Assembly (NCBI GenBank): GCA_900315155.1
Contig: OMYB01000010.1
Span: 1 to 64,000, forward strand
Direction of reading: 5' to 3'
DNA from: an uncultured Selenomonadales bacterium
Lineage (GTDB): Bacteria; Bacillota; Negativicutes; Selenomonadales; Selenomonadaceae
DNA: 64,000 nucleotides
The notes below the pieces were generated by a model, which ran no database searches, was not told the DNA's origin, and was given only the letters and a program-made list of their open reading frames with translations. The position numbers were made by a program, and so were the translations under genes. Positions 3,318-63,669 of this stretch are shown piece by piece. Numbering within the stretch: position 1 is the stretch's first letter; each line of letters begins with the position of its first letter.

Positions 3318-6300
3318 ATGTCAGTAAGAAGAATTTTCGTGGAAAAACGGCAGGGCTTTTTTGACGTCGAGGCGCGCCAGCTGTGCGACGACCTCACGGA
3401 GACGTTCCGCCTCACGGGGCTGAAGGCCGTGCGCATCATCAACCGCTACGACATCGAGGGGCTCGATGACAGCGAGTACGCGCAGGTCAAGTCCGTCGTG
3501 TTCTCGGAGCCGACCGTCGATGTCGTCTATGAGGAAAAGCTGCCCCATTTCCCGAACTCCCGCGTGTTTGCCGTGGAGTATCTGCCGGGCCAGTTCGACC
3601 AGCGTGCGGACTCCGCAGCGCAGTGCGTGCAGCTCGTGACGCAGAAAGAGCGCCCCGGGATCGCGACGGCGCGCGTCATCGTCATCGTCGGCAACGTGAG
3701 CCTCGAGGACTTCGAGAAAATCAAGGCCTACTGCATCAACAAGGTCGAGAGCCGCGAGGCCTCGCTTGCGAAACCGGAATCCCTCGAAATGCATGCCGAG
3801 GAGCCCGCGGACGTCGCGGTGCTGCAGACGTTCAACCTCATGGACGCCGGGCAGCTCGCCGCGTTCCATGCGAAGTGCGGCTTTGCCATGAGCCTCGAGG
3901 ATCTCGCGTTCTGCCAGAAATATTTCCGCGACACGGAGCACCGCGCGCCGACGATCACGGAGCTGCGCGTCATCGACACGTACTGGTCCGACCACTGCCG
4001 CCACACGACATTCACGACGGCCATCGACATGGTCGATGTGGAGGACGGGTATTTCACGCCGTCCATCCTGCAGGCGTACCATCAGTACCAGCAGGACCGC
4101 GATGAGGTCTACGGCCCGACGACGCGCGACGTGACGCTCATGGATGTCGCCGTCATCGGCATGAAGGCGCTCCGCCAGGCAGGCAAGCTCGATGACCTCG
4201 ACCAGTCCGAGGAGATCAATGCGTGCAGCATCGTCGTGCCCGTTGATGTAGGCGGGCAGGTGCAGGACTGGCTCATCCAGTTCAAGAACGAGACGCACAA
4301 CCACCCGACGGAGATCGAGCCGTTCGGCGGCGCGGCCACGTGTCTCGGCGGCGCGATCCGCGACCCGCTGTCCGGTCGCTCGTATGTCTACCAGGCCATG
4401 CGCGTGACGGGCGCCGCCGACCCGCGTCGTCCGTTCAGCGAGACGCGCCCGGGCAAGCTCCCGCAGAAAAAGATCACGCTCGGCGCGGCCGCAGGCTACA
4501 GCGCCTACGGCAACCAGATCGGCCTCGCGACGGGGCAGGTCCGCGAGGTCTACCATGAGGGCTACCTCGCAAAACGCATGGAGATCGGCGCCGTCATCGC
4601 CGCGGCACCGAAAGAGAACGTCGTCCGCGAACGCCCGCAGCCAGGCGACTATATCGTGCTGCTCGGCGGCCGCACGGGCCGCGATGGCATCGGCGGTGCG
4701 ACGGGCTCCTCGAAAGAGCACACGGAGGAGTCGCTGACCTCCTGCGGCGCCGAGGTCCAGAAGGGCAACCCGCCGACGGAGCGCAAGATCCAGCGTCTGT
4801 TCCGGAACCCCGCGGTCAGCCGCATGATCAAGCGCTGCAACGACTTTGGCGCGGGCGGCGTGGCCGTGGCCATCGGCGAGCTCGCCGACGGCCTCATCAT
4901 AGACCTCGACACGATCAAAAAGAAATACGAAGGCCTGGACGGCACGGAGCTCGCGATCTCGGAGTCGCAGGAGCGCATGGCCGTCGTCATCGACCCGAAA
5001 GACCTCGAAGCGTTCCAGCGTTATGCGGATGCGGAGAACCTCGAGTCCACGCACGTCGCGACGGTCACGGAGGAGCCGCGCCTCATCATGAAATGGCGCG
5101 GGCAGCCCATCGTGCAGATGAACCGCTCGTTCCTCGACACGAACGGCGTCCGCCAGCACGTCAGCGCCATCATCAGCCAGCCGGACGCGGAGCACCGCTA
5201 CCTCCACGAGATCCCGGCCCCCGTGCAGGCACTCCGCCGGAACCTCCCGGCCGCCTGGCTCGAAAACCTCAAAAGCCTGAACGTCTGCAGCCAGAAAGGC
5301 CTCGCGGAGCGCTTTGACTCCACGATCGGCGGCAACACGGTCCTCATGCCTTTTGGCGGCCGCACGCAGCTCACGCCGGCCGAAGGCATGGTCGCGAAAG
5401 TCCCGGTACAGGGCGCGGAGACGAATACGGCCACGGCCATGACGTTTGGCCTCGACCCGGATTTCATGAGCTGGAGCCCGTTCCATGGCGCCGTGTACTC
5501 CGTCGTCGCGGCTGCGGCGAAGATGGTCGCGCTCGGCGGCCGCGCGGAGACCATCCGCCTGACGTTCCAGGAGTACTTTGAGAGCCTCGGCAAGGACGAG
5601 CGCAAGTGGGGCAACCCGTTCGCTGCGCTCATCGGCGCCCTCTGGGCACAGCACCAGCTCGAGATCCCGGCTATCGGCGGTAAGGACTCCATGTCCGGCA
5701 CGTTCGAGGACATCCACGTCCCGCCGACGCTCGCGGCCTTTGCCGTCGACGTCCTGCCGGCCGACCACGCCGTTTCGCCAGAGTTCAAATACGCGGGCAA
5801 CAAGGTCTGGATCGTGCCGTGCAAGAAGGACACGCAGGATCTGCCTGTCTTCGCGCAGCTGCGCAGGAACTTCGAGAAGATTGAGGCCATGACCGCGAAA
5901 CGCCAGGTGTTCTCCGCGCAGAGCGTCGGCGTCGGCGGTATCGCGGCAGCCGTCACGAAGATGACGCTCGGCAACCGCATCGGCTTTAAGTTCACGACGT
6001 TCCTGAAGCGCGACGAGCTGTTTACGCCGGACTACGGCACGATCCTCCTCGAGGTCGCCCCGAACGCAAAGATGGACACGCTCCTCGCGGGCACGGGAGC
6101 CTACGAGCTCGGCGAGACGACGGATGTCCCGAGCATCGTCGTCGACAACGAGGTCATCACGATCGCCGAGGCCGAGACGGCCTACACGACGCCGCTGGAA
6201 AAGATTTTCCCGACGCGCGTCAAACAGCCGTCGAAGGAGCGTGCGACGTGGGTGCCGTACGAAAAGGGCAACAAGCTCCCGGGCGGCCTGACGCATGTCG

Positions 6301-12802: not shown

Positions 12803-14230
12803 GTGTTATTCAACTCCTTTGCATTTATCTTTTTGTTCCTGCCGATCGCTGTGGTCGGCTTTTTTGGCGTGAGCAGGGTGCGGCACGAGCTCGGGACGGC
12901 CTGGCTCGTGCTGGCGTCGCTGTTTTTCTACGGGTGGTGGGACTACCGGTATGTGCCGCTGCTCGTGGGGTCGATTTTGTTTAACTACCTCGTCGGGCGG
13001 CGGCTGGAGCAGTTGGCGGCGGGGCACGCGATCGAGCGGGGCGGGCATGTGACGGCCGAGATGCCGCATTACCGCGCGCGAAAGGCCTGGCTGGCGTTTG
13101 GCACTCTCGCCAATGTCGCGCTGCTCGGGTATTTCAAATACACGGATTTCTTCCTCGGCACGTGGAACGCGCTCGCGGGGGCTATGGTGTTCGATTTGCC
13201 GCATATCGTGCTGCCGCTCGGCATTTCGTTCTTTACGTTCACGCAGACGGCGTATCTCGTCGATGCGTACCGCGGGCAGGCGAGGACGCCTTCGCTGCTG
13301 GCGTACGGCGAGTTCGTGACGATTTTCCCGCATCTCATCGCGGGGCCGATCATCAACCACAAGAAGATGATGCCGCAGTTCGTGGCGGAGGAGACGTTCC
13401 ACGTGAACTGGACAAACCTGTCTGCGGGGGTCACACTGTTCGTGCTGGGGCTTTTCAAAAAGGTCTGTCTAGCGGACACGATTGCGCCGTGGGTGAACGC
13501 GGCATTTGCGCAGACGGACGGCCTCACGTGCCTCGCGGCGTGGGCGGCCGTGATCGGGTACACGCTGCAGCTGTATTTCGATTTCTCCGGCTACAGCGAG
13601 ATGGCGCTCGGCCTCGGCCTCATGCTGAACCTGCGCCTGCCGCAGAACTTTGACTCACCGTATCAGGCGCGGAGCATCATCGACTTTTGGCGGCGCTGGC
13701 ACATGACGCTCGGCCTCTGGGTGCGCGACTACCTCTACATCCCCATGGGCGGCAACCGCTTTGGGAAATGGCGGCAGATGCGAAACCTTTTCGTCAGCAT
13801 GCTCATCATCGGCCTCTGGCACGGCGCGGGCTGGACGTATGTGCTCTGGGGCGCGTGGCACGGCGTCATGCTCATGATCAACCACGCGTGGCGCGGGATC
13901 GGCCGCATGCTGCCGGAGCCAGTCTGCTGGCTCCTCACCATGGCGGGCGTCATCCTCGGCTGGGTCTTCTTCCGCGCGAGTGACTTCCACACGGCCGGCA
14001 TTATTTTCGCCGCCATGGCCAACCTATCGAGCCTCGCCCTCGACGTCGATGCGGGCCAGCTCGCCTTCCTCGCCGCCTGTGCCGTCGCGACCCTCACCAT
14101 GCCGACCCCCGTCCGCCTCATGGAGAAATTCCGCCCCAGCCTCTCCTGGCTCCTCCTCACGATCGCCCTCGGCCTCCTCGCGCTATCCCAATTCTCTCAC
14201 GTCACCGACTTCCTCTATTTCCAATTTTAA
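12803..14230 (+). CDS. MBOAT family O-acyltransferase (AlgI/DltB-like), copy 1
   Basis: 475 residues from the GTG at 12803 (AGAGGTG upstream; the product begins VLFNSFAFIFLFLP like its paralog at 18757). About ten transmembrane helices. The MBOAT signatures are present: DFWRRWHMTLGLWVRDYLYIP, then LIIGLWHGAGWTYVLWGAWHG, where the His of LWHGAGW is the likely catalytic residue. Such proteins carry acetyl groups across the membrane to polysaccharides, working with a periplasmic SGNH-type partner; one follows immediately. It shares roughly two thirds of its residues by eye with copy 2, but uses C-rich third positions like the core genes around it. Confidence 0.9.
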   Translation: MLFNSFAFIFLFLPIAVVGFFGVSRVRHELGTAWLVLASLFFYGWWDYRYVPLLVGSILFNYLVGRRLEQLAAGHAIERGGHVTAEMPHYRARKAWLAFGTLANVALLGYFKYTDFFLGTWNALAGAMVFDLPHIVLPLGISFFTFTQTAYLVDAYRGQARTPSLLAYGEFVTIFPHLIAGPIINHKKMMPQFVAEETFHVNWTNLSAGVTLFVLGLFKKVCLADTIAPWVNAAFAQTDGLTCLAAWAAVIGYTLQLYFDFSGYSEMALGLGLMLNLRLPQNFDSPYQARSIIDFWRRWHMTLGLWVRDYLYIPMGGNRFGKWRQMRNLFVSMLIIGLWHGAGWTYVLWGAWHGVMLMINHAWRGIGRMLPEPVCWLLTMAGVILGWVFFRASDFHTAGIIFAAMANLSSLALDVDAGQLAFLAACAVATLTMPTPVRLMEKFRPSLSWLLLTIALGLLALSQFSHVTDFLYFQF

Positions 14231-14297
14231 TAAAAAGAGGCAGGGTATAAAAAACGTGGGAAAAGCCCCCTCGCCGGCCCTAAAGGATGTGAATGAT

Positions 14298-15425
14298 TTG
14301 AAACCGAAAACCTACGCCGCGACGGCCATCGCCTTTTTTGCGGCCTTTTTCCTCGGCAACCTCTGCCTGTGGCACTACTTTGTCTACCCGACGTTCCTCG
14401 GGGAAATCGAGACGGGGCACGGCGACCTGCTGCGCGTCGGCGGCATCGCGCGCGTGGATGCGGCGACGGAGCCGCGGATCTACGAGGCGCACCACACGGA
14501 GTTCGCGGATTACCTCAAAGGCCTCGCGGCAGGGGAGTCCGAGGCCTTTGACGTCCTCACGATCGGCGACTCGTTCAGCAACGGCGGCGGGGGCGCGTAC
14601 TATCAGGACATTCTCGGCGCCGAGACGGATTTGCGCATCCTGAACGTCCCCGCGCCGACCGGCAAGCTCAACGCCATCGAGACCTACTACGCCCTCGAAC
14701 GCCTCGGCTACCTCGATAAAATCCAGCCCAAGGTCGTCATCCTCGAGTCCGTCGAGCGCTACATCGACGACCGCTACGGCGAAAAGCTCCTCGAGACCCC
14801 GAAAACCACCGACACCGAACTTCGCCAGCTCATCGCGCCCGACACGTTTCCCTCAGAGGAGGCATCCACAGGCACGGAAAACACGGGTGCCGGACGCCTC
14901 GACTGGCTGCTCCCGCCCGTCATGCTCAACGCGAACGGCGAATACCTCGTGAACAAATGGTTTACGCTCTGGCACCCCGACCAGCTCAGCAGCAACACTT
15001 ACTGCCTCCGCCTCACGAAGCCGTTCTTCACGAACCCCGGCCGCGAAAACCAGCTCCTTTTCTACGACGAAGAACTCGCCTACACGAAACGCCCCATCCG
15101 CACGGACATGGTCGACAAAAACCTCCAAAATGCCGCCGCGCTCGCCAAAAGCCACGGCAGCCAGCTCTACTTCATGCCCGTCGCCGATAAAATCGACCTC
15201 TACCACCCCTGGCTCAGCGAAGCCGACAAAGCCAGATGGGGCGAAAACCCCTTTATCGGCGAACTCCGCGCCAAGGCCCAGACCTACACCGTCATCGACA
15301 CCCGCGCCATCCTGCGCCCCCTCCTCGAACAGGGCGAGCCCGACATCTGGTGGCAGGACGACACCCACTGGACCTGGAAAGCCGCCGAACAAATCAGCAG
15401 CGCCCTGCAGAAAGAGTTGCCATAA
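14298..15425 (+). CDS. AlgJ/AlgX-like (SGNH-fold) polysaccharide O-acetylation partner
   Basis: 375 residues if it starts at the TTG at 14298 (AAAGGA upstream), giving a positively charged start and one membrane anchor; a GTG at 14256 would add 14 residues. The extracytoplasmic part has the SGNH serine motif IGDSFSN (about residue 92) and a late DDTHWTWK segment giving the Asp-His of the triad, as in the DHHW/AlgJ families. It probably receives acetyl groups from the MBOAT protein encoded just upstream and attaches them to an exported glycan. No function is proven for this pair. Confidence 0.75.
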   Translation: MKPKTYAATAIAFFAAFFLGNLCLWHYFVYPTFLGEIETGHGDLLRVGGIARVDAATEPRIYEAHHTEFADYLKGLAAGESEAFDVLTIGDSFSNGGGGAYYQDILGAETDLRILNVPAPTGKLNAIETYYALERLGYLDKIQPKVVILESVERYIDDRYGEKLLETPKTTDTELRQLIAPDTFPSEEASTGTENTGAGRLDWLLPPVMLNANGEYLVNKWFTLWHPDQLSSNTYCLRLTKPFFTNPGRENQLLFYDEELAYTKRPIRTDMVDKNLQNAAALAKSHGSQLYFMPVADKIDLYHPWLSEADKARWGENPFIGELRAKAQTYTVIDTRAILRPLLEQGEPDIWWQDDTHWTWKAAEQISSALQKELP

Positions 15426-15500: not shown

Positions 15501-16436
15501 TTAGAGCATAGCCAGGATTTTGGACTGTGCCGGTTTGGGGATATCCAACATATCCATGGCCTGCTGGGCGGTCATGTTGAGCTTCTTCATGATGGATTTG
15601 ATGTTCTTCAGCCGTTCTTCCGTAGTGCCTTCTTTTTTCCCTTCCACGCGGATATCGTTGATTGCTTTGCACATATCGATCTTCTCCTTATTTTTGCTAT
15701 AGGACAGGTTCGCTTTGGTGGTTGCGTTCATGACATCGACCGCTTCGCGATCGACCTGGCGAAAGCGGCTATGGCGGGTGACCAGATTTTGCAATTTCTC
15801 GGCATCGTTGGCGCATTGGAGCATCTGTAAGATCTCCCGCATATTTGTGCGAAATTTCATCAAGTCTTTCTCCGTCATGGTTGCCGGGTCGATGAGGTTG
15901 AGATGGTAATCCGGCGCGAGGCGGAGGAGGCGTTTATCGCTGCATTGGTATAGCTCATGCAGTGACCGGGCGCCGTCCCACGGCTCGGTGCCAAAGTGTA
16001 CGACGATGGTCACGACGGGGAGCAGGTGGTCGTTTTTCGTGAAACCGCTCGTGAACGCGGCGCCATTGGTTTTCTGCGTTCCGGTTTCCCGGTTCTTTCG
16101 ATTCTTTTTGGCGATGCTCTGTACTTGTTCATCGAGACGCATCGCGTCATATAGGATTCCACGCACGGGCATGGCATAGTGGACGTTGGTCTGGTCTTCG
16201 ACGCCGATGATGCAGAACGCGGTCTTGCCATCCGTTTTCATGACCATCCGCACGACGTCGCGATCCTTCTGCACGGACGTCCCACGGCTCGTGCGCACCA
16301 GCGACGCGGTATCCAGCTCACGGAGCTGATCCGGCTGGATCACCTGTCGGCCATGATAGATATACTGGTTAACGATATCGGCAAACACATCCTTGCGACG
16401 CACATAAATTTTCGCCGCGCGATCGGGCTCTCCCAT
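15501..16436 (-). CDS. Rpn-like PD-(D/E)XK nuclease / putative transposase (copy 1)
   Basis: 311 residues. It resembles the Rpn/YhgA-like family (recombination-promoting nucleases, often labelled putative transposases), with the acidic/core region near GKTAFCIIGVEDQTNVHYAMPVRGILYD and a C-terminal helical part ending in a TAQQAMDMLDIPK segment typical of these proteins. Rpn proteins are Mg- or Ca-dependent endonucleases that raise RecA-independent recombination. A strong AGGAGGAGG lies before the ATG. It is isolated, convergent with the SGNH gene and next to a broken transposase gene. Assignment rests on overall pattern; active-site residues are less clear than in the copy at 41104. Confidence 0.7.
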   Translation of the reverse strand: MGEPDRAAKIYVRRKDVFADIVNQYIYHGRQVIQPDQLRELDTASLVRTSRGTSVQKDRDVVRMVMKTDGKTAFCIIGVEDQTNVHYAMPVRGILYDAMRLDEQVQSIAKKNRKNRETGTQKTNGAAFTSGFTKNDHLLPVVTIVVHFGTEPWDGARSLHELYQCSDKRLLRLAPDYHLNLIDPATMTEKDLMKFRTNMREILQMLQCANDAEKLQNLVTRHSRFRQVDREAVDVMNATTKANLSYSKNKEKIDMCKAINDIRVEGKKEGTTEERLKNIKSIMKKLNMTAQQAMDMLDIPKPAQSKILAML

Positions 16437-16956
16437 GGGGGTCCTCCTCCTATTATACTATATTTTTCTCCCAGTTACATCTATAAAATAGTATAGTACT
16501 AACATTCGTTTATTTCAAGAGGATATCTCTAATCGATCGCAATTTTACATCATCCAGGATCAAATAAGCAGTTCAGAAAATAGACACGATTTTTATATCT
16601 TTGGCAAAATCATCATTTTTTTGCCGAAGATATAATTCATACAATCCTATCTTAGCAAAATCATCCTGCAGCATGAGCAGGGCTCTTTTTCTATACAACC
16701 TGGCTGTGAGCAGCAGAAAATTTTTGCTCAAGCTAAAGAAAATTACGCAAACGTCATAGATTTTCAGAGTGGAGTACATGAGTCACGTACATCCCTGAGA
16801 GGAGGACAATAGACTATTGAAACCGGCGAATGCGGCTTGCCGCAAGCCGGCGATGGGGTTTCCTTGAATACTTGGCGATTTTTGCGCATGGCAAACAAGC
16901 CTGCAGGTGTGCATTTTTTTGCGAGCCTGCGGCGCGGTTAGCAGTTTATGTCGTTT
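16437..16956. other. Gene-free AT-rich gap with hairpin and short repeats
   Basis: Contains a TATAAT-like box for the Rpn gene just upstream of its start (minus strand, near 16455), a 16-bp hairpin with one mismatch (16594-16609 with 16619-16634), and two copies of GCAAAATCATC (16604-16614, 16655-16665). The 68-codon frame at 16573-16779 (minus) has no ribosome site and overlaps the hairpin; it is not called. Confidence 0.5.
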
Positions 16957-18438
16957 TTATGCAGCGATGGCTTCGTCGGCCAGGGGGGCTTGCAGCGAGG
17001 CAGTATGTTGCCAAGCAACCAGATGCTCGAGCATGAGAATGACATACAGCCGGCAGTACCAGAGCTTGCTGGAACGGTGGTGGCCGTCCTCAAGTTTGTA
17101 GTCGGTCTTAATCCGCTTGTTGTCTCTTTCCGCAGAGGAGCGCCGCTTGTATTCCTTTACCCATTCCTTGCTGCCGCGTGTTGGCTGGCAGAACATGCGG
17201 GGATTCTCCCGCATCGGCAGGTGCACGACACGGCCGTAGTCGGAGGCCGTGCATTTCTGCTCGCAGTTGCAGACGACCTTCTTGCCGCCTTTTCCCTTGC
17301 AATGCTGCAGTTTCGGGCAGCGGAACTTCATGCGCATGCGTGATTTCTCGCAGCCGTCGCTGTGCATGGGCAGGCCGGCCGGGCAGAGCGGGCGCCCGTT
17401 CTCATCCAGCGGGATGTTATGCCATTCGGTGAGCGTGGAGCGTTTGTTGAGGTCAACGAAAGGCTGTATGCCCTCATCCAGGAAATAATGGTAGAGTGGC
17501 ATGGCGTCGTGGGCCGAGTCCAGTAGCAACCGTTTGGTGTGCATTTGCGGCAGGAGGCGTTGACAGAGGAAAAACGTCTCGACAAAGGCGAGCGAGTCAT
17601 GGCGCGAGGCGGGCAGGAGCAGTGGAAACACCGGCAGATCGCTGTGCGACTCGGCGGCCGTCAGCAGGTACAGATTGTAGCCGTTGTAGTAGCAGTTTCG
17701 CGAAGAATCCCAGCCCCAAAAAGAATCCGGCTGGGAATAGTAGCGGTCGCACTCGCAGCGCTCGATGCCACGTGCATGGCAGTCGCAGACACGGTGCTCA
17801 CGGCCTCGTGCGGACGTCCTGACCGGCGTGCCGTCACCGGCCAGGCAGAGATCCCGGGCGTTTATGAGCCCCTCGTCGACGGAACGCTACAAAAACAGCT
17901 GGAAGATGCGCAGGAGCCGGATGTACGGCTCGCCTGCAGGCAGGGAAGCATTCCGCCAGTGCGCAAGCTCTTCGGCAACCTTGCCATCTTCCGGCGTGTC
18001 AGCCTTCTTGTTCTTGCCGTGCGGGGCCTTTGGTACATCCTTCTTCGGGCGCACGTGCGGCCGGATGTTGGGGCTGTCCAGATTCCACAGGCGCGTGGCA
18101 AAATTGTAAAACGTGCCGACGGCAGGGACGTTGCGGCAGTCGCGCCAGCCGCAGATCCGCGCGTAAAGCACGTCGCTGCGGAGCCGTTCCACCCAATCCG
18201 TGATGGACGGCACCTTGAGAAAAGCAGCCAAGAGGCAGGCGATGAGCATGCTGGACGGCGCATAAGGTCTGGGACCAAACTTCGAGTAGGTTTCCGCGAG
18301 AAGCTGATCCACGGGAGCCAGGTCGATGGACATGATGGCGCGGATAAATTTCTTGAGCTTTTTGCTGACATGGCGGTGCGAAAGGAACTCCCGCAGGGAA
18401 GCCGCATAGGCAGACTGGCAAAAAGAATCGGGATACAT
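16957..18438 (-). pseudogene. DDE transposase interrupted by one in-frame amber codon
   Basis: Reading the minus strand from the ATG at 18438, a single frame runs to TAA at 16957-16959 (493 codons) except for one TAG at 17887-17889. The N-terminal half has the helical LAETYSKFGPRPYAPSSML segment seen in IS transposases. The second half has candidate DDE residues: Asp in LAGDGTPV, Asp in LLLDSAHD and Glu in SSAERDNKR, plus a cysteine-rich stretch (CDCHARGIERCECD). The IS family was not assigned. No frameshift is needed, so this is a recent point mutation or a read-through stop. I found no convincing terminal inverted repeats at the flanks. Confidence 0.8.
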
Positions 18439-18530
18439 GGCAATACCTCCTTCGGATCGGTGAAAAAACGTTTCACTTCTCAGAAGGCGCGAAGCGCCCC
18501 GATTTTTGTGGATTTGTCAAGGGGTTAGCG

Positions 18531-18638
18531 GCAAAAAAAATAAAAATTGCCGTTCCGTGTGCGCCATCCGCGGAATCTGTGGGGGGCACAGACAAAAATA
18601 AAGCCTCTAAACCATTGAAAAATCTAGGTTTAGAGACT
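18531..18638. other. Two hairpins upstream of MBOAT copy 2
   Basis: GCGGCAA/TTGCCG around an A-rich loop (about 18531-18555), and GCCTCTAAACC with GGTTTAGAGAC (18603-18613 with 18627-18637). On the minus strand the second is followed by TTTATTTTTG, so it may end a transcript running leftwards. They lie between the transposase gene and the next promoter and may mark the element's edge. Confidence 0.5.
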
Positions 18639-18654
18639 CTGAAAAAATATCGTC

Positions 18655-18683
18655 TTGCAGGGGGGGGACAAACCTTATATAAT
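18655..18683 (+). promoter_or_regulatory. Promoter of MBOAT unit 2 with a G8 tract in the spacer
   Basis: TTGCAG at 18655-18660, 17-base spacer, TATAAT at 18678-18683. The spacer begins with a homopolymer: eight G in a row at 18660-18667. At the present length the spacing is optimal. Confidence 0.75.
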
Positions 18684-18756
18684 GGTTATGGCTTTGGTTT
18701 GGCAGAGATGCGATGAGCTGCGAGTCTTAACGATTATAGAGAAGGGTTGTGTAGAG

Positions 18757-20253
18757 GTGTTATTCAATTCGTATGAATTCATCTTTTTGTTTTTGCCGAT
18801 AACCATTATCGGCTTTTTCCTCGTGAGCAAGAAACGGCGTCAGTATGGAACATTGTGGCTGGTACTGGCGTCATTTTTCTTTTATGGCTGGTGGGACTAC
18901 CACTACGTGCCATTGCTGGCGGCCTCCATCTGCTTCAACTATTGGGTAGGGAAGCATCTGGAGGCGCTGGCAGCCGGGTACGAAATCCCGAAGGGCGGGG
19001 CTGTCACTAAGGACATGCCACAGGCTGCCGCGCGGAAAGGCTGGCTGATTTTTGGTATCGTTGTCAACGTCGCGTTGCTGGGGTACTTCAAGTATACGGA
19101 TTTCTTCCTCGGCACGGTAAATGCGGTAGCGGGCACGGACTGGTTTGACCTGCCGCACATCGTGCTGCCGCTGGGCATCTCCTTCTTCACGTTCACCCAA
19201 ACGGCGTATCTGGTCGATGCCTATCGTGGACAGGCGAAAAATCAATCCTTCCTGACTTATTGCGAGTTCGTGACCATCTTCCCGCATCTGATTGCCGGTC
19301 CGATTATCAACCACAAAGAAATGATTCCGCAGTTCGTTGCGGAAAAGACGTTTCGGGTAGACTGGCACAATGTATCGGTGGGGCTGGCTATCCTCATCAT
19401 GGGTCTGTTCAAGAAGGTAGCTATTGCCGATAAACTTTCGCCGTGGGTTGGTGGAGTATTCAGTCATGCAGACTCCTTGACGTTTATCGAAGCATGGTTT
19501 GGTGTTTTGGCGTATACCTTGCAACTGTACTTCGACTTCTCAGGTTATAGTGAGATGGCCATTGGCCTTGGCTTGATGATAAATCTTCGTCTGCCGCAGA
19601 ACTTCGACTCCCCCTATCAGTCGCGCAGCATTATCGACTTCTGGCGGCGCTGGCATATGACGCTGGGGTTGTGGGTCAAGAACTACCTCTATATCCCGAT
19701 GGGCGGCAACCGTCATGGACAGCTGAAAAAGATGCGGAATTTGTTCGTCAGCATGCTGATCATCGGCCTCTGGCACGGCGCAGGCTGGACGTACGTGTTC
19801 TGGGGCGCATGGCATGGCGTGATGCTCATGGTCAACCATTTATGGCGCAGCCTGCACATCAATCTGCCGCAGGCGCTTTGCTGGCTCATGACCATCACCG
19901 GCGTCATTATCGGCTGGGTGTTCTTCCGCGCGGCCAGTTTTGGCGAAGCGCAGAGCATTCTATACGCGATGACAGATTTTCAGAGCATTGTGTTACCGGC
20001 ATTCTGCGAAAAAGCATTGGGGTTCCTGTCCGCTTTCGGCGTGACGTTCTCGGCAGCGCACGTTGTATCGACAAAACAATTCTTGGAAGTTGTAGCTTTG
20101 TTCGTTGTGGTGGTCTTTATCCCGAATCCGCTCCGTGTTGTTCAGCAATACTTCAAGGAAAACAACAAGTGGCTGCTGGTATTGACGGCCCTGTTGGTGT
20201 ACGCACTTCTCAAACTGAATAGCTATTCGGAATTCCTGTATTTCCAGTTCTAA
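18757..20253 (+). CDS. MBOAT family O-acyltransferase (AlgI/DltB-like), copy 2
   Basis: 498 residues from the GTG at 18757, aligned with the start of copy 1 (VLFNSYEFIFLFLP). The upstream in-frame TTG at 18655 lies in the promoter and is rejected. Same membrane topology and motifs: DFWRRWHMTLGLWVKNYLYIP and LIIGLWHGAGWTYVFWGAWHG with the likely catalytic His. It is about 23 residues longer than copy 1 because of a C-terminal insertion before the last helices. Codon use is more AT-rich than copy 1, which suggests separate acquisition rather than a recent tandem duplication. It probably O-acetylates an exported glycan with the next gene's product. Confidence 0.9.
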   Translation: MLFNSYEFIFLFLPITIIGFFLVSKKRRQYGTLWLVLASFFFYGWWDYHYVPLLAASICFNYWVGKHLEALAAGYEIPKGGAVTKDMPQAAARKGWLIFGIVVNVALLGYFKYTDFFLGTVNAVAGTDWFDLPHIVLPLGISFFTFTQTAYLVDAYRGQAKNQSFLTYCEFVTIFPHLIAGPIINHKEMIPQFVAEKTFRVDWHNVSVGLAILIMGLFKKVAIADKLSPWVGGVFSHADSLTFIEAWFGVLAYTLQLYFDFSGYSEMAIGLGLMINLRLPQNFDSPYQSRSIIDFWRRWHMTLGLWVKNYLYIPMGGNRHGQLKKMRNLFVSMLIIGLWHGAGWTYVFWGAWHGVMLMVNHLWRSLHINLPQALCWLMTITGVIIGWVFFRAASFGEAQSILYAMTDFQSIVLPAFCEKALGFLSAFGVTFSAAHVVSTKQFLEVVALFVVVVFIPNPLRVVQQYFKENNKWLLVLTALLVYALLKLNSYSEFLYFQF

Positions 20254-20268
20254 AGGGAGGGTGGTATC

Positions 20269-21261
20269 TTGAAGAATTTTGCACTGAAATTGCTCGGTCT
20301 GACTGGTATTTGTCTATGTTTAGTAGCTGGGTACAACTATTGGAATGATACGTCTGGGCTGTATAATCAGGATTTCTCTGTACCGCGGCAAGAACCGGAT
20401 CAGCATTTCGTGAAGGTTCGTTACCTGCTGGAGAATCCAACTAAATATGATGCGTATTGCTTCGGTTCATCGCGGGTAGGCAATATTGACTTGACGAAAA
20501 TCGAGGATGGCCATAGATACTACAATATGACGTATTCGGAAGGGCTGCCGGAAGAGTGGCTGGCTGATGTGAAAATTATGCTGAAGCATCAGGTTACCAT
20601 CAAGCGCATCCTGGTCGGGTGTGATGATTTCTCTTTCCGTGTTGATCCCAAAATGCACGAGAGTCAGTATCTGCGTGTCCCCTATAAGGAGGACAATCTC
20701 AAGACATACCTGTCATTCCTGCTGAAAGTACCGTCTATGCCGGTACGCAGCAGTGACAAGAACAGCATTTATGACATATATAGCTCTGGTCGGCCCTTGC
20801 ACGATTTTGTTGACGTAGAGATCGAGAAGAATCCGGAAAAGCATCTGGCGGAGATGGCAGCCAAGCCGCCAACACATTATGCTGGCAACTACATGGAGCA
20901 AACGCTGGACGCTTTGCGTGAGTTGAAACAGATATGCGACGCTAACGGGATAGAGCTGATCGTATTCATCAATCCTATCAACCACAAGACATACATGGAC
21001 ACCAACAAGAAGGAATTCAATGCGTTCAAAGCAGGCCTGGCGGATATTACGGACTACTACGACTTTAGCGGCCTGAACGACATCACGACGAACGACTATT
21101 ATTACTATGAGACCTCGCATTATCGCCCTTTGGTCGGTGATATGATGGTTCATCGGCTTTTGGATGAGCCCAAAGAACTCAATACGGATTTTGGCCGGTA
21201 TGTGACAAGGGAAAATGTGGATACGCACATCGAATTCTTGCAAGCACAATTGGCACAGTAA
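20269..21261 (+). CDS. SGNH-fold-like partner protein of MBOAT copy 2
   Basis: 330 residues from a TTG at 20269 with a strong AAAGGGAGGG. One N-terminal membrane anchor (about 7-24), then an extracytoplasmic domain with FGSSRVGNID (a GDS-like serine block near residue 65) and a late YYETSHYRPLVGD segment giving a Ser-His-type partner motif. This is the pattern of the short membrane-anchored proteins encoded after AlgI-like genes. It does not obviously match the 375-residue partner of copy 1, so the two units may modify different positions. Terminated at 21264-21303. Confidence 0.65.
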   Translation: MKNFALKLLGLTGICLCLVAGYNYWNDTSGLYNQDFSVPRQEPDQHFVKVRYLLENPTKYDAYCFGSSRVGNIDLTKIEDGHRYYNMTYSEGLPEEWLADVKIMLKHQVTIKRILVGCDDFSFRVDPKMHESQYLRVPYKEDNLKTYLSFLLKVPSMPVRSSDKNSIYDIYSSGRPLHDFVDVEIEKNPEKHLAEMAAKPPTHYAGNYMEQTLDALRELKQICDANGIELIVFINPINHKTYMDTNKKEFNAFKAGLADITDYYDFSGLNDITTNDYYYYETSHYRPLVGDMMVHRLLDEPKELNTDFGRYVTRENVDTHIEFLQAQLAQ

Positions 21262-61220: not shown

Positions 61221-62416
61221 GCAACGAGAAAAGCATAAAACTCGACTACAGCGATGTCCATTTCCAGAACGATGGGCGGCTGAAGCTCCTCATCATCGTG
61301 GGCACGCGCCCGGAAATCATCCGGCTCTCCGCCACGATTACGGCCTGCCGCCGGTATTTCGACGTCATCCTCGCGCATACGGGGCAAAACTACGACTATA
61401 ACCTGAACGGCGTGTTTTTCCATGACCTGCAGCTCGGTGAGCCAGAGGTCTACATGGACGCGGTCGGCGACGACCTCGGCGCCACGGTCGGCAACATCAT
61501 CAACGCTTCGTACAAGCTCATGCGCGCCATCCAGCCGGATGCGCTGCTGATCCTCGGCGATACGAACTCGTGCCTGTCGGCCATCCCGGCCAAGCGCCTG
61601 CATATCCCGATTTTCCACATGGAGGCGGGCAACCGCTGCAAGGACGAGTGCCTGCCGGAGGAGACGAACCGCCGCATCGTGGACATCATCAGCGATGTCA
61701 ACATGCCCTACAGCGAGCATGCACGCCGCTATCTCGCCGAGTGCGGCCTGCCGAAGGAGCGCACCTTTGTCACGGGCTCCCCGATGGCGGAGGTCCTGCA
61801 CAAAAATCTCGAAGCCATCGAGCAGAGCGACATCCTCCAAAAACTCAACCTGCAGGCCGGTCACTACATCCTGCTCTCGGCGCACCGCGAGGAAAACATC
61901 GACACGGAGGAAAACTTCCGCAGCCTGTTCACGGCGATCAACGCCCTCGCGGAAAAATACGACATGCCGATCCTCTACAGCTGCCACCCGCGCAGCCGTA
62001 AACGCCTGGAGGAAAGCGGATTCCCGCTCGATAGCCGCGTCATCCGCCACGAGCCGATGGGATTCCACGACTACAACAACCTCCAGATGAACGCCTACGC
62101 CGTCGTCAGCGACAGCGGCACCCTGCCCGAAGAAAGCTCCTTCTACGCCAGCATCGGCCACCCCATCGCCGCCGTCTGCATCCGCACCAGCACAGAAAGG
62201 CCCGAAGCCATGGAAAAAGGCTGCTTCATACTAGCAGGGATAACGGAAAAAAGCCTCCTGCAGGCCGTAGACACCGCTGTGGGCATGAGAGACAACGGAG
62301 AAATGAGCACGCCCGTGCCTGACTACACCGAAGAAAACGTCAGCGGGAAGGTCGTAAGGATCGTGCAGAGCTGGACAGGGGTCGTCGATAGGATGGTGTG
62401 GAGGAAAAATCCATGA
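61217..62416 (+). CDS. capG: CapG/FnlC: UDP-N-acetyl-sugar 2-epimerase
   Basis: 399 residues. Non-hydrolysing 2-epimerase (WecB fold): GTRPEIIRLSATI, HTGQNYDYNLNGVFF, HMEAGNRCKDECLPEETNRRIVD, SAHREENID and SDSGTLPEESSF. It finishes UDP-L-FucNAc synthesis. It follows capF and overlaps the next glycosyltransferase gene (ATGA). Confidence 0.95.
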   Translation: MSNEKSIKLDYSDVHFQNDGRLKLLIIVGTRPEIIRLSATITACRRYFDVILAHTGQNYDYNLNGVFFHDLQLGEPEVYMDAVGDDLGATVGNIINASYKLMRAIQPDALLILGDTNSCLSAIPAKRLHIPIFHMEAGNRCKDECLPEETNRRIVDIISDVNMPYSEHARRYLAECGLPKERTFVTGSPMAEVLHKNLEAIEQSDILQKLNLQAGHYILLSAHREENIDTEENFRSLFTAINALAEKYDMPILYSCHPRSRKRLEESGFPLDSRVIRHEPMGFHDYNNLQMNAYAVVSDSGTLPEESSFYASIGHPIAAVCIRTSTERPEAMEKGCFILAGITEKSLLQAVDTAVGMRDNGEMSTPVPDYTEENVSGKVVRIVQSWTGVVDRMVWRKNP

Positions 62417-63669
62417 AAGTGCTGCTAGCCAACGTCTGCTGCAAGGAAGGCTCCACAGGCAAAATCGTTTATGACCTATATCATGGCCTGCGGAAAGACG
62501 GACACGAAGCGGTCATCGCCTACGGGCGCGGAAGGAAAATCAATGAGCCGGGTATCCATCGCGTAGGCATCCCTGCAGAAACCTATATCCATGCAGGACT
62601 CACGAGACTGACGGGATACACAGGCTGCTTCTCTCCAATATCGACGAGACGCATGATACGCCTCATCGACGAATTCCGACCGGACGTCATCAACCTCCAT
62701 GAAATGCACGCCTATTTCATGAATATCCGGCCGCTTGTCCGGCATATCCGTAAGAAGGGCATTCCTACGGTATGGACGTTCCATTGTGAAGAAATGTACA
62801 CCGGGAAATGTGGGCATGCATACAACTGTACACGTTACAAAGACGGATGCGGCAAGTGCCCTGCCGTTCATGACTATCCCAAAAGTCTTTGGCTGGATCA
62901 AACGCATAAAATCTGGCAGCGAAATAAAGACTTATTTGACGGATGGGATGTTACTATCGTGACGCCATCCCAGTGGCTGGCGGACCGCGTGAAGGGCTCT
63001 TTTCTTGCGGATAAGCGTATCGAGGTCATCCACAACGGCATCGACACGGAGCATATCTTTTACCCGCACGACGCCACGACCCTGCGTGAGCAGTACGGCC
63101 TCACAGGGAAAAAGGTCGTACTGGCCGTCATGCCCAACATCCATGACGAGCGCAAAGGCGGCCCTGTCGTCCTGGCATTAGCCACACAGATGCCGGATTT
63201 GCAATTCGTTATCGTTGGCGCGGACGAAACCGAGAACTACAGCGACAATGTACTGCTTGTCAAGCGCATGCAAGATCAGCAGGAGCTTGCCACGTGGTAC
63301 TCGCTGGCCGATGTTTTCCTGCTGACCAGTCAAAAGGAGACTTTTTCTATGACCTGTGCCGAAGCCCTATGCTGTGGCGCCCCCGTGGCGGGGCTGGAAA
63401 GCGGTGCACCCGAGACGGTGTTCCCGCAACCTTACGCCCGCTTTGTTGGGGATAACCCACTGATTGGTGATATATCTGCCCCCCCCCCGATGGACAACAC
63501 GTTTGCGCCGTCTGCTGTGGCCTATACACGGCTGGCGACAGCGGTGGGTGAGCAGCTGGCGGCGGGGTATGACCATAGCGCAGTCAGCGCAGCCATGTCA
63601 CCACTCTTCGCCGACCACAACATGTACCAGCACTACCGCGACCTCTACCGAGAGCTCTGCCAGCAGTGA
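62413..63669 (+). CDS. Glycosyltransferase family 4 with an internal C10 tract
   Basis: 418 residues from the ATG at 62413 (GTGGAGGAAAA upstream). VLLANVCCKEGSTGKIVYDLYHGL is the typical N-terminus of WcaC/CapM-like GT4 enzymes; NLHEMHAYFMNI, IVTPSQWL, HNGIDTEHIF and the donor-site SQKETFSMTCAEALCCGAPVAGLESGAPE (E-x7-E) follow. A run of ten C at 63479-63488 encodes PPP in the C-terminal third. It probably adds a sugar to the lipid-linked repeat unit; donor and acceptor unknown. Confidence 0.88.
   Translation: MKVLLANVCCKEGSTGKIVYDLYHGLRKDGHEAVIAYGRGRKINEPGIHRVGIPAETYIHAGLTRLTGYTGCFSPISTRRMIRLIDEFRPDVINLHEMHAYFMNIRPLVRHIRKKGIPTVWTFHCEEMYTGKCGHAYNCTRYKDGCGKCPAVHDYPKSLWLDQTHKIWQRNKDLFDGWDVTIVTPSQWLADRVKGSFLADKRIEVIHNGIDTEHIFYPHDATTLREQYGLTGKKVVLAVMPNIHDERKGGPVVLALATQMPDLQFVIVGADETENYSDNVLLVKRMQDQQELATWYSLADVFLLTSQKETFSMTCAEALCCGAPVAGLESGAPETVFPQPYARFVGDNPLIGDISAPPPMDNTFAPSAVAYTRLATAVGEQLAAGYDHSAVSAAMSPLFADHNMYQHYRDLYRELCQQ
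63479..63488 (+). repeat. Homopolymer of ten C in a glycosyltransferase gene
   Basis: GC-C(10)-GATGG within codons for Ala-Pro-Pro-Pro-Met. A one-base slip would truncate or extend the reading frame. Confidence 0.95.

Follow-up and report, generated by a model that had tools for sequence, protein, structure and literature searches.

A recurrent poly-G block with promoter-like spacing precedes mostly surface genes in Selenomonadaceae and may make their transcription phase variable

Most of what is known about poly-G promoter switches comes from a small number of pathogens, in which they were described gene by gene. Neisseria opc resembles porA, and in the case of the poly-C tract of Bordetella fim, of Moraxella uspA1 and of the poly-G tracts of Treponema pallidum tpr genes, a homopolymer in or near the promoter tunes the transcription of a surface protein. 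For porA of Neisseria meningitidis, the length of the tract sets the level of expression: in an 11G strain, variants with 10G show intermediate and those with 9G low expression (PMC3639595). In Campylobacter, poly-G tracts of at least 7 residues count as mutable and switching was shown from eight onwards; these tracts lie mostly within reading frames (77% in the study; PMC6321876). Our literature search (most subscription papers were outside its scope) returned no paper linking Selenomonas or Negativicutes to homopolymeric phase variation, and the block sequence described below retrieved unrelated papers only.

Here, we analyzed a stretch of 64,000 nucleotides from an uncultured Selenomonadales bacterium (contig OMYB01000010.1; hereafter the window), in which positions 18651-18683 read CGTCTTGCA GGGGGGGG ACAAACCTTA TATAAT. 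The block begins with a conserved 5' element on the plus strand, (C)GTCTTGCA (18651..18659; family consensus TGTCTTG(C/T)(G/A)), which contains a -35-like TTG at 18655. TTGCA from 18655 is followed by the tract GGGGGGGG (18660-18667, plus strand), the part of the spacer that differs in length among related copies, by the 3' part of the spacer, ACAAACCTTA (18668..18677, plus strand), and by a -10 box predicted from the sequence, TATAAT (18678..18683, plus strand). In this 3' part, ACA is frequent across the module, and the TGn of an extended -10, often seen at other copies, is missing at this locus. The initial annotation had described TTGCAG and then eight G. The eight G are confirmed, but they do not follow TTGCAG, since the first of them is also its sixth base and one G had been counted twice (8 in total). 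Its spacing is correct: with the -35 taken as TTGCAG (18655-18660), the distance to TATAAT is exactly 17 bp, and the locus holds a homopolymer of at least about 7 nt between -35 and -10 (8 G in a 17-bp spacer).

Taken as a single site, the case is weak. TTGCAG matches the -35 consensus TTGACA at 3/6 positions (TATAAT at 6/6, with a spacing of 17 bp), and because of this 3/6 match a generic sigma-70 consensus scan returned no entry for the TTGCAG/TATAAT pair at 18655-18683. Furthermore, G/C runs of at least 6 nt are depleted in the 64-kb window (12 seen versus 29 expected under a first-order Markov model) and runs of at least 8 nt are near expectation (2 versus 1.5), so that the G8 tract is unremarkable by itself. 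An argument from the G-run counts of the window was dropped, as the runs are depleted and not enriched.

Downstream of the block, a gene with a GTG start (18757..20253, plus strand) encodes an MBOAT-family membrane O-acyltransferase of 498 aa (Pfam MBOAT, E=1.6e-30), preceded by a likely ribosome-binding site, GAAGGG, at 18741-18746; the block at 18651-18683 would be the active promoter driving this gene. Its stop is followed after 15 bp by a gene for a 330-aa protein (20269..21261, plus strand). Of the MBOAT/SGNH unit named in the initial annotation, the MBOAT part is supported by the profile match, whereas the SGNH label is unconfirmed, because the product of 20269-21261 had no Pfam or NCBIfam match in the profile searches. 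Judged by its position and by a paralogous unit, this product is a probable partner of the MBOAT protein in an AlgJ/AlgX-like position. The paralogous unit (12803..15425, plus strand) is without a G-tract promoter and consists of an MBOAT gene (12803-14230), whose protein is 66% identical to that of the gene at 18757, and an overlapping ORF (13980-15425), the partner, which matches the ALGX domain in Pfam. The unit at 18757-21261 is indeed AT-richer, as proposed earlier (GC per kb of 0.53 and 0.47 versus about 0.63). Elsewhere in the window, a run of ten C on the plus strand (63479-63488) lies near the 3' end of a group-1 glycosyltransferase frame (62398-63669); slippage there would alter the C-terminus of the glycosyltransferase, which may make the run a second switch of the window, one acting on translation.

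Directly upstream of the block lies an IS1182-like insertion sequence on the minus strand (16753..18650), beginning at 16753 with GTCATAGATTTTCAGAGT and running with ACTCTGAAAAAATAT to 18650; both ends are approximate and were placed by comparison with the copies in genomes G003 and G130. The transposase frame is interrupted (17887-18438 and 16957-17631, both minus). Both pieces match the NCBIfam model transpos_IS1182 (E=3.4e-13 and 3.7e-8), below its curated cut-off because the gene is broken. As in IS1182, the transposase is located between inverted repeats of about 16 bp, and the imperfect ends are common to copies elsewhere. The element has replaced the A-rich sequence that is usually found just upstream of the block. 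Four copies or relatives of the element (window 16753-18650; L087 1-292; L086 1501-2058; L101 1501-1650) end 11-14 nt from a poly-G tract of 7-9, and two of the four adjoin a TGTCTTG-polyG promoter block directly. This suggests a preference for such sites and hints that the element may target poly-G promoter sites. IS1272, a member of the same family, targets inverted repeats (PMC5678879). Beside the element, the window also contains a Transposase_31/YhgA-like (Rpn-type) gene (15501-16436, minus strand), the upstream region of which has a 73-bp match with 78% identity at G000:C23:10716.

Within Selenomonadaceae, a loose pattern search of 189 genomes and the sequence around its matches yielded the full block consensus (A)ATGTCTTG(C/T)(G)-poly(G)-(A)CA-N-TGn-TATAAT. 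The pattern TTGNNG6N8-14TANNNT occurs at 3 sites in the genome of the window, versus 0 for the reversed control. These copies are TTGCA(G8)ACAAACCTTATATAAT at 18655, before the MBOAT gene; TTGT(G9)ACACTTCCTATATAAT at G000:C10:81208, before an MBOAT gene beside a flippase-like polysaccharide gene; and TTGCA(G7)ACAAGACTGTTATAAT at G000:C15:46604, before a gene for a ShlB/FhaC-type outer-membrane protein. The core TGTCTTGNNGGGGG was found at 151 sites (24 reversed) in 189 genomes of the same family, at 61 sites (6 reversed) in a second family of the class and at 29 sites (16 reversed) in the remaining genomes, the family sums being transcribed by hand from the search table. In G220, which belongs to this second family, there are 22 sites versus 0 reversed (about two dozen copies). 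With 3 versus 0 sites in the genome and these family counts, the case goes beyond the single-site evidence. Upstream of the TTG, where the loose searches imposed nothing, GTC is present in 92/108 distinct sites and TGTC in 86/108. The block is absent from 4/6 of the closest named MBOAT relatives and from about two thirds of 30 ShlB-like loci. In S. ruminantium HD4 (L008), an interrupted block, TGTCTTGTCCGGGGAGGGGTATTTGTAGTATGAT, immediately precedes the MBOAT homolog at 4001, as if locked with respect to slippage.

Two ideas about the nature of the block were discarded. A phage origin was rejected after a comparison of three versions of the block with 2.9 million viral contigs, which gave 0, 1 and 0 matches. 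Likewise, a dimer-type operator of the form TGTC...GACA was rejected, as many sites lack the ACA and the distance between the arms shifts with the tract.

Relative to the predicted ORFs, the placement of the block is that of a promoter. A same-strand ORF with a Shine-Dalgarno sequence starts within 300 nt at 130/150 sites, at a median distance of about 68 nt, compared with 32/155 for the opposite strand and 219/447 for random positions (minimum ORF length 100 aa, Shine-Dalgarno-like sequences accepted, sites with enough flanking DNA). According to a Pfam tally of 145 downstream proteins, the genes behind the block are mostly surface genes: 19 proteins match Bac_transf (bacterial sugar transferases of the capsule priming type), 11 MBOAT, 11 ShlB, 4 SLH, 3 YadA_head and 3 Poly_export, besides others. 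A strongly hydrophobic N-terminal stretch is present in 99/145 of the downstream proteins versus 13/54 background ORFs of the window. By gene type, in this tally as well as for the MBOAT gene of the window, the block is thus associated with surface or antigenic genes. In the genus of the window, it precedes MBOAT genes (twice in this genome, once in G002), an acyltransferase-3 gene (G001) and a LicD-family gene (G003). There are also non-surface targets, namely helix-turn-helix regulators, a TerD-like protein and a ribonucleotide-reductase-like protein, the latter two named by eye from the sequence.

Several poly-G promoters of G220 (L252, L273, L274) lie before small XRE-type helix-turn-helix regulators, so that some regulators may be switched themselves. 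The LicD-family gene of the same-genus species is located behind an IS-adjacent poly-G promoter (L251, G003:C71:277-302); in Haemophilus, a different mechanism makes lic genes phase variable.

The related sites comprise 167 distinct sequences with tracts of 6-11 G. Among these, we defined near-identical groups by flanks of at least 88% identity over 25 nt upstream and 35 nt downstream, compared without gaps; flank-indel rates from gapped alignments were judged unreliable, being permissive, and the ungapped groups were used instead. Tract lengths in related genomes, a count that the initial annotation had proposed, are not invariant: they differ in 8/13 near-identical promoter groups, between species or paralogs. 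For example, L241 (7G) and L244 (8G) have identical flanks, and L304 (11G) and L373 (8G), both before related ShlB-type genes, show one flank difference. Other near-identical promoters differ by one G (L317 with 7G and L319 with 8G; L336 with 9G and L346 with 10G; L287 with 10G and L307 with 9G), as do two paralogous promoters within G010 (L178 with 10G, L182 with 9G). The block is kept in the ShlB-type target of the window's own genome, with 7G, and in the three loci most closely related to it, each with 8 G. As there is one genome per species, the comparison is limited to related promoters, where differences between species can also build up slowly, and for single tract differences a homopolymer assembly error is possible. 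Tracts of 6-7 G, which may be too short for frequent switching, make up about a third of the sites, including nearly all of those in G220.

The length of the spacer is held more narrowly. Where an extended -10 could be placed, the tract and the 3' part together measure 18 nt in 74/134 sites, 17 in 26 and 19 in 18; the spacer is centred on 16 bp, while 15 or 17 bp account for most of the remaining sites and a tail extends up to 19. The 3' part is longer where the tract is shorter (7+11, 8+10, 9+9), and this compensation indicates that the spacing is under selection. Such compensated spacing is what an ordinary promoter would be expected to require. Slippage-like changes of 1-3 G would shift individual promoters off the optimum, which fits a spacing switch as well as a plain promoter with drift.

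Considering the block itself, its recurrence, the type of gene downstream, its placement, the constraint on spacing and the tract differences among near-identical promoters, we regard it as probable that the block represents a promoter module found throughout the lineage and that its poly-G spacer renders the transcription of surface genes phase variable. The earlier idea of slippage in a poly-G spacer is strengthened by the recurrence before surface genes and by the 8/13 differing groups, while its view of an isolated, porA-like case gives way to a shared module. The block at 18651-18683 would be one copy of a module that surface genes share across the Selenomonadaceae and in part of the related Negativicutes. 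The -35 with its TTG and the TATAAT-type -10, usually extended by TGn, would be read by the housekeeping sigma factor, with the poly-G tract of 6-11 G located in the spacer between them. Slipped-strand mispairing would add or remove G, so that the spacer leaves about 16-17 bp (to 15, 18 or 19) and transcription is raised or lowered reversibly. This reading takes the block to be the active promoter, expression to depend on tract length and the tract to vary within a population, three points that we infer from sequence comparison. In this genome, the genes varied would be the O-acyltransferase unit 18757-21261, the second MBOAT gene in the polysaccharide region and the ShlB/FhaC-type protein. 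The outcome would probably be a random up and down switching of surface structures, for instance of glycan O-acylation.

The main rival, which we judge unlikely, is a regulated promoter class that does not switch. Here, TGTCTTGYG and the poly-G would form the binding site of a putative activator, repressor or accessory sigma factor; the G run would be a part of the recognition sequence or a structural spacer, and the length differences slow drift. The conservation of TGTC goes far beyond the needs of a -35 element and would permit a trans-acting regulator, and in a small sample 0/7 promoters of the type TTGACA-N16-18-TATAAT in the same DNA carry this extension. As TGTCTTG is superfluous for slippage, it points to a DNA-binding regulator, and both the nearly uniform 7 G of the roughly two dozen G220 sites and the compensation that holds the spacing are consistent with a fixed site. 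However, tract length is the main difference among near-identical promoters and reaches 3 G, which a rigid site would hardly tolerate, and the downstream genes are typical targets of phase variation. Regulation and switching may also coexist. A further reading, less likely than not, is a class-wide phase-variable regulon with two layers, in which one trans-acting factor on the shared TGTCTTG-polyG would coordinate genes for capsule, O-acylation, two-partner secretion and adhesins, and independent slippage at each gene would decide which of these genes respond in a given cell.

The neighbouring transposase reported initially belongs to a real, though broken, IS1182-like element, which could have given the -35 and the G tract, with a hybrid promoter formed on insertion. 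Its end adjoins the block, and poly-G likewise flanks the copies in G003 and G130. Yet the conserved part of the IS ends with AAAAAATAT (18650), ahead of GTCTTG, and the IS copies differ beyond this point; the block is hence not IS-derived, and nearly all of the about 160 sites are without a neighbouring IS. An IS origin of the G tract is therefore refuted for the block, and we give this explanation very little credence. Very unlikely, too, is a translational switch, in which a start at TTG 18655 would place the G tract in frame and slippage would cause a frameshift: the frame is open from this TTG through the MBOAT gene, but the homologs and the paralog begin with MLFNS, matching the GTG at 18757, no ribosome-binding site precedes 18655, and elsewhere the block sits tens to hundreds of bases ahead of the gene. 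We rejected a start at 18655 on these grounds. Finally, one G8 run per 64 kb is within expectation, and a functionless homopolymer beside chance promoter-like hexamers would suffice for the window alone; with the block present three times in the genome (0 for the control pattern) and hundreds of times across the class, such a coincidence is refuted and has a negligible probability.

The switching of promoters by poly-G in the spacer is already known, and what the literature searched did not contain is one shared block that marks surface genes across a class. In Selenomonadaceae and relatives from gut, rumen and mouth, the block appears to mark capsule priming enzymes, O-acyltransferases, secretion partners and adhesins. 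If this is confirmed, the sequence of any such genome would be enough to list its candidate phase-variable surface genes. The conserved TGTCTTG part additionally raises the question of a regulator that reads the switches.

Compared with the known systems, the module is set apart from the fim, uspA1 and tpr cases, which occur in other bacteria, have the tract at another position and no TGTCTTG element, and concern few genes per genome. The downstream unit resembles the MBOAT plus SGNH units AlgI/AlgJ and PatA/PatB in the order of an MBOAT gene and a second surface-associated gene, with an ALGX-domain paralogous unit nearby, but its partner (20269-21261) has no detectable SGNH domain. With the Campylobacter phasome, the genomes studied here have in common that many poly-G tracts of at least 7 per genome accompany surface genes and differ in length from one homolog to another; the difference is that the tract occupies a fixed position within a promoter. 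The architecture resembles that of porA, a surface gene with poly-G between its -35 and -10, where the number of G moves the spacing of these elements (PMC3639595). In that system, however, individual genes are concerned, with no common flanking block across the genome. The predicted switch of the Negativicutes, a different class, is instead built on TGTCTTG(C/T)(G)-polyG-...-TGn-TATAAT, common to unrelated surface genes in many genera.
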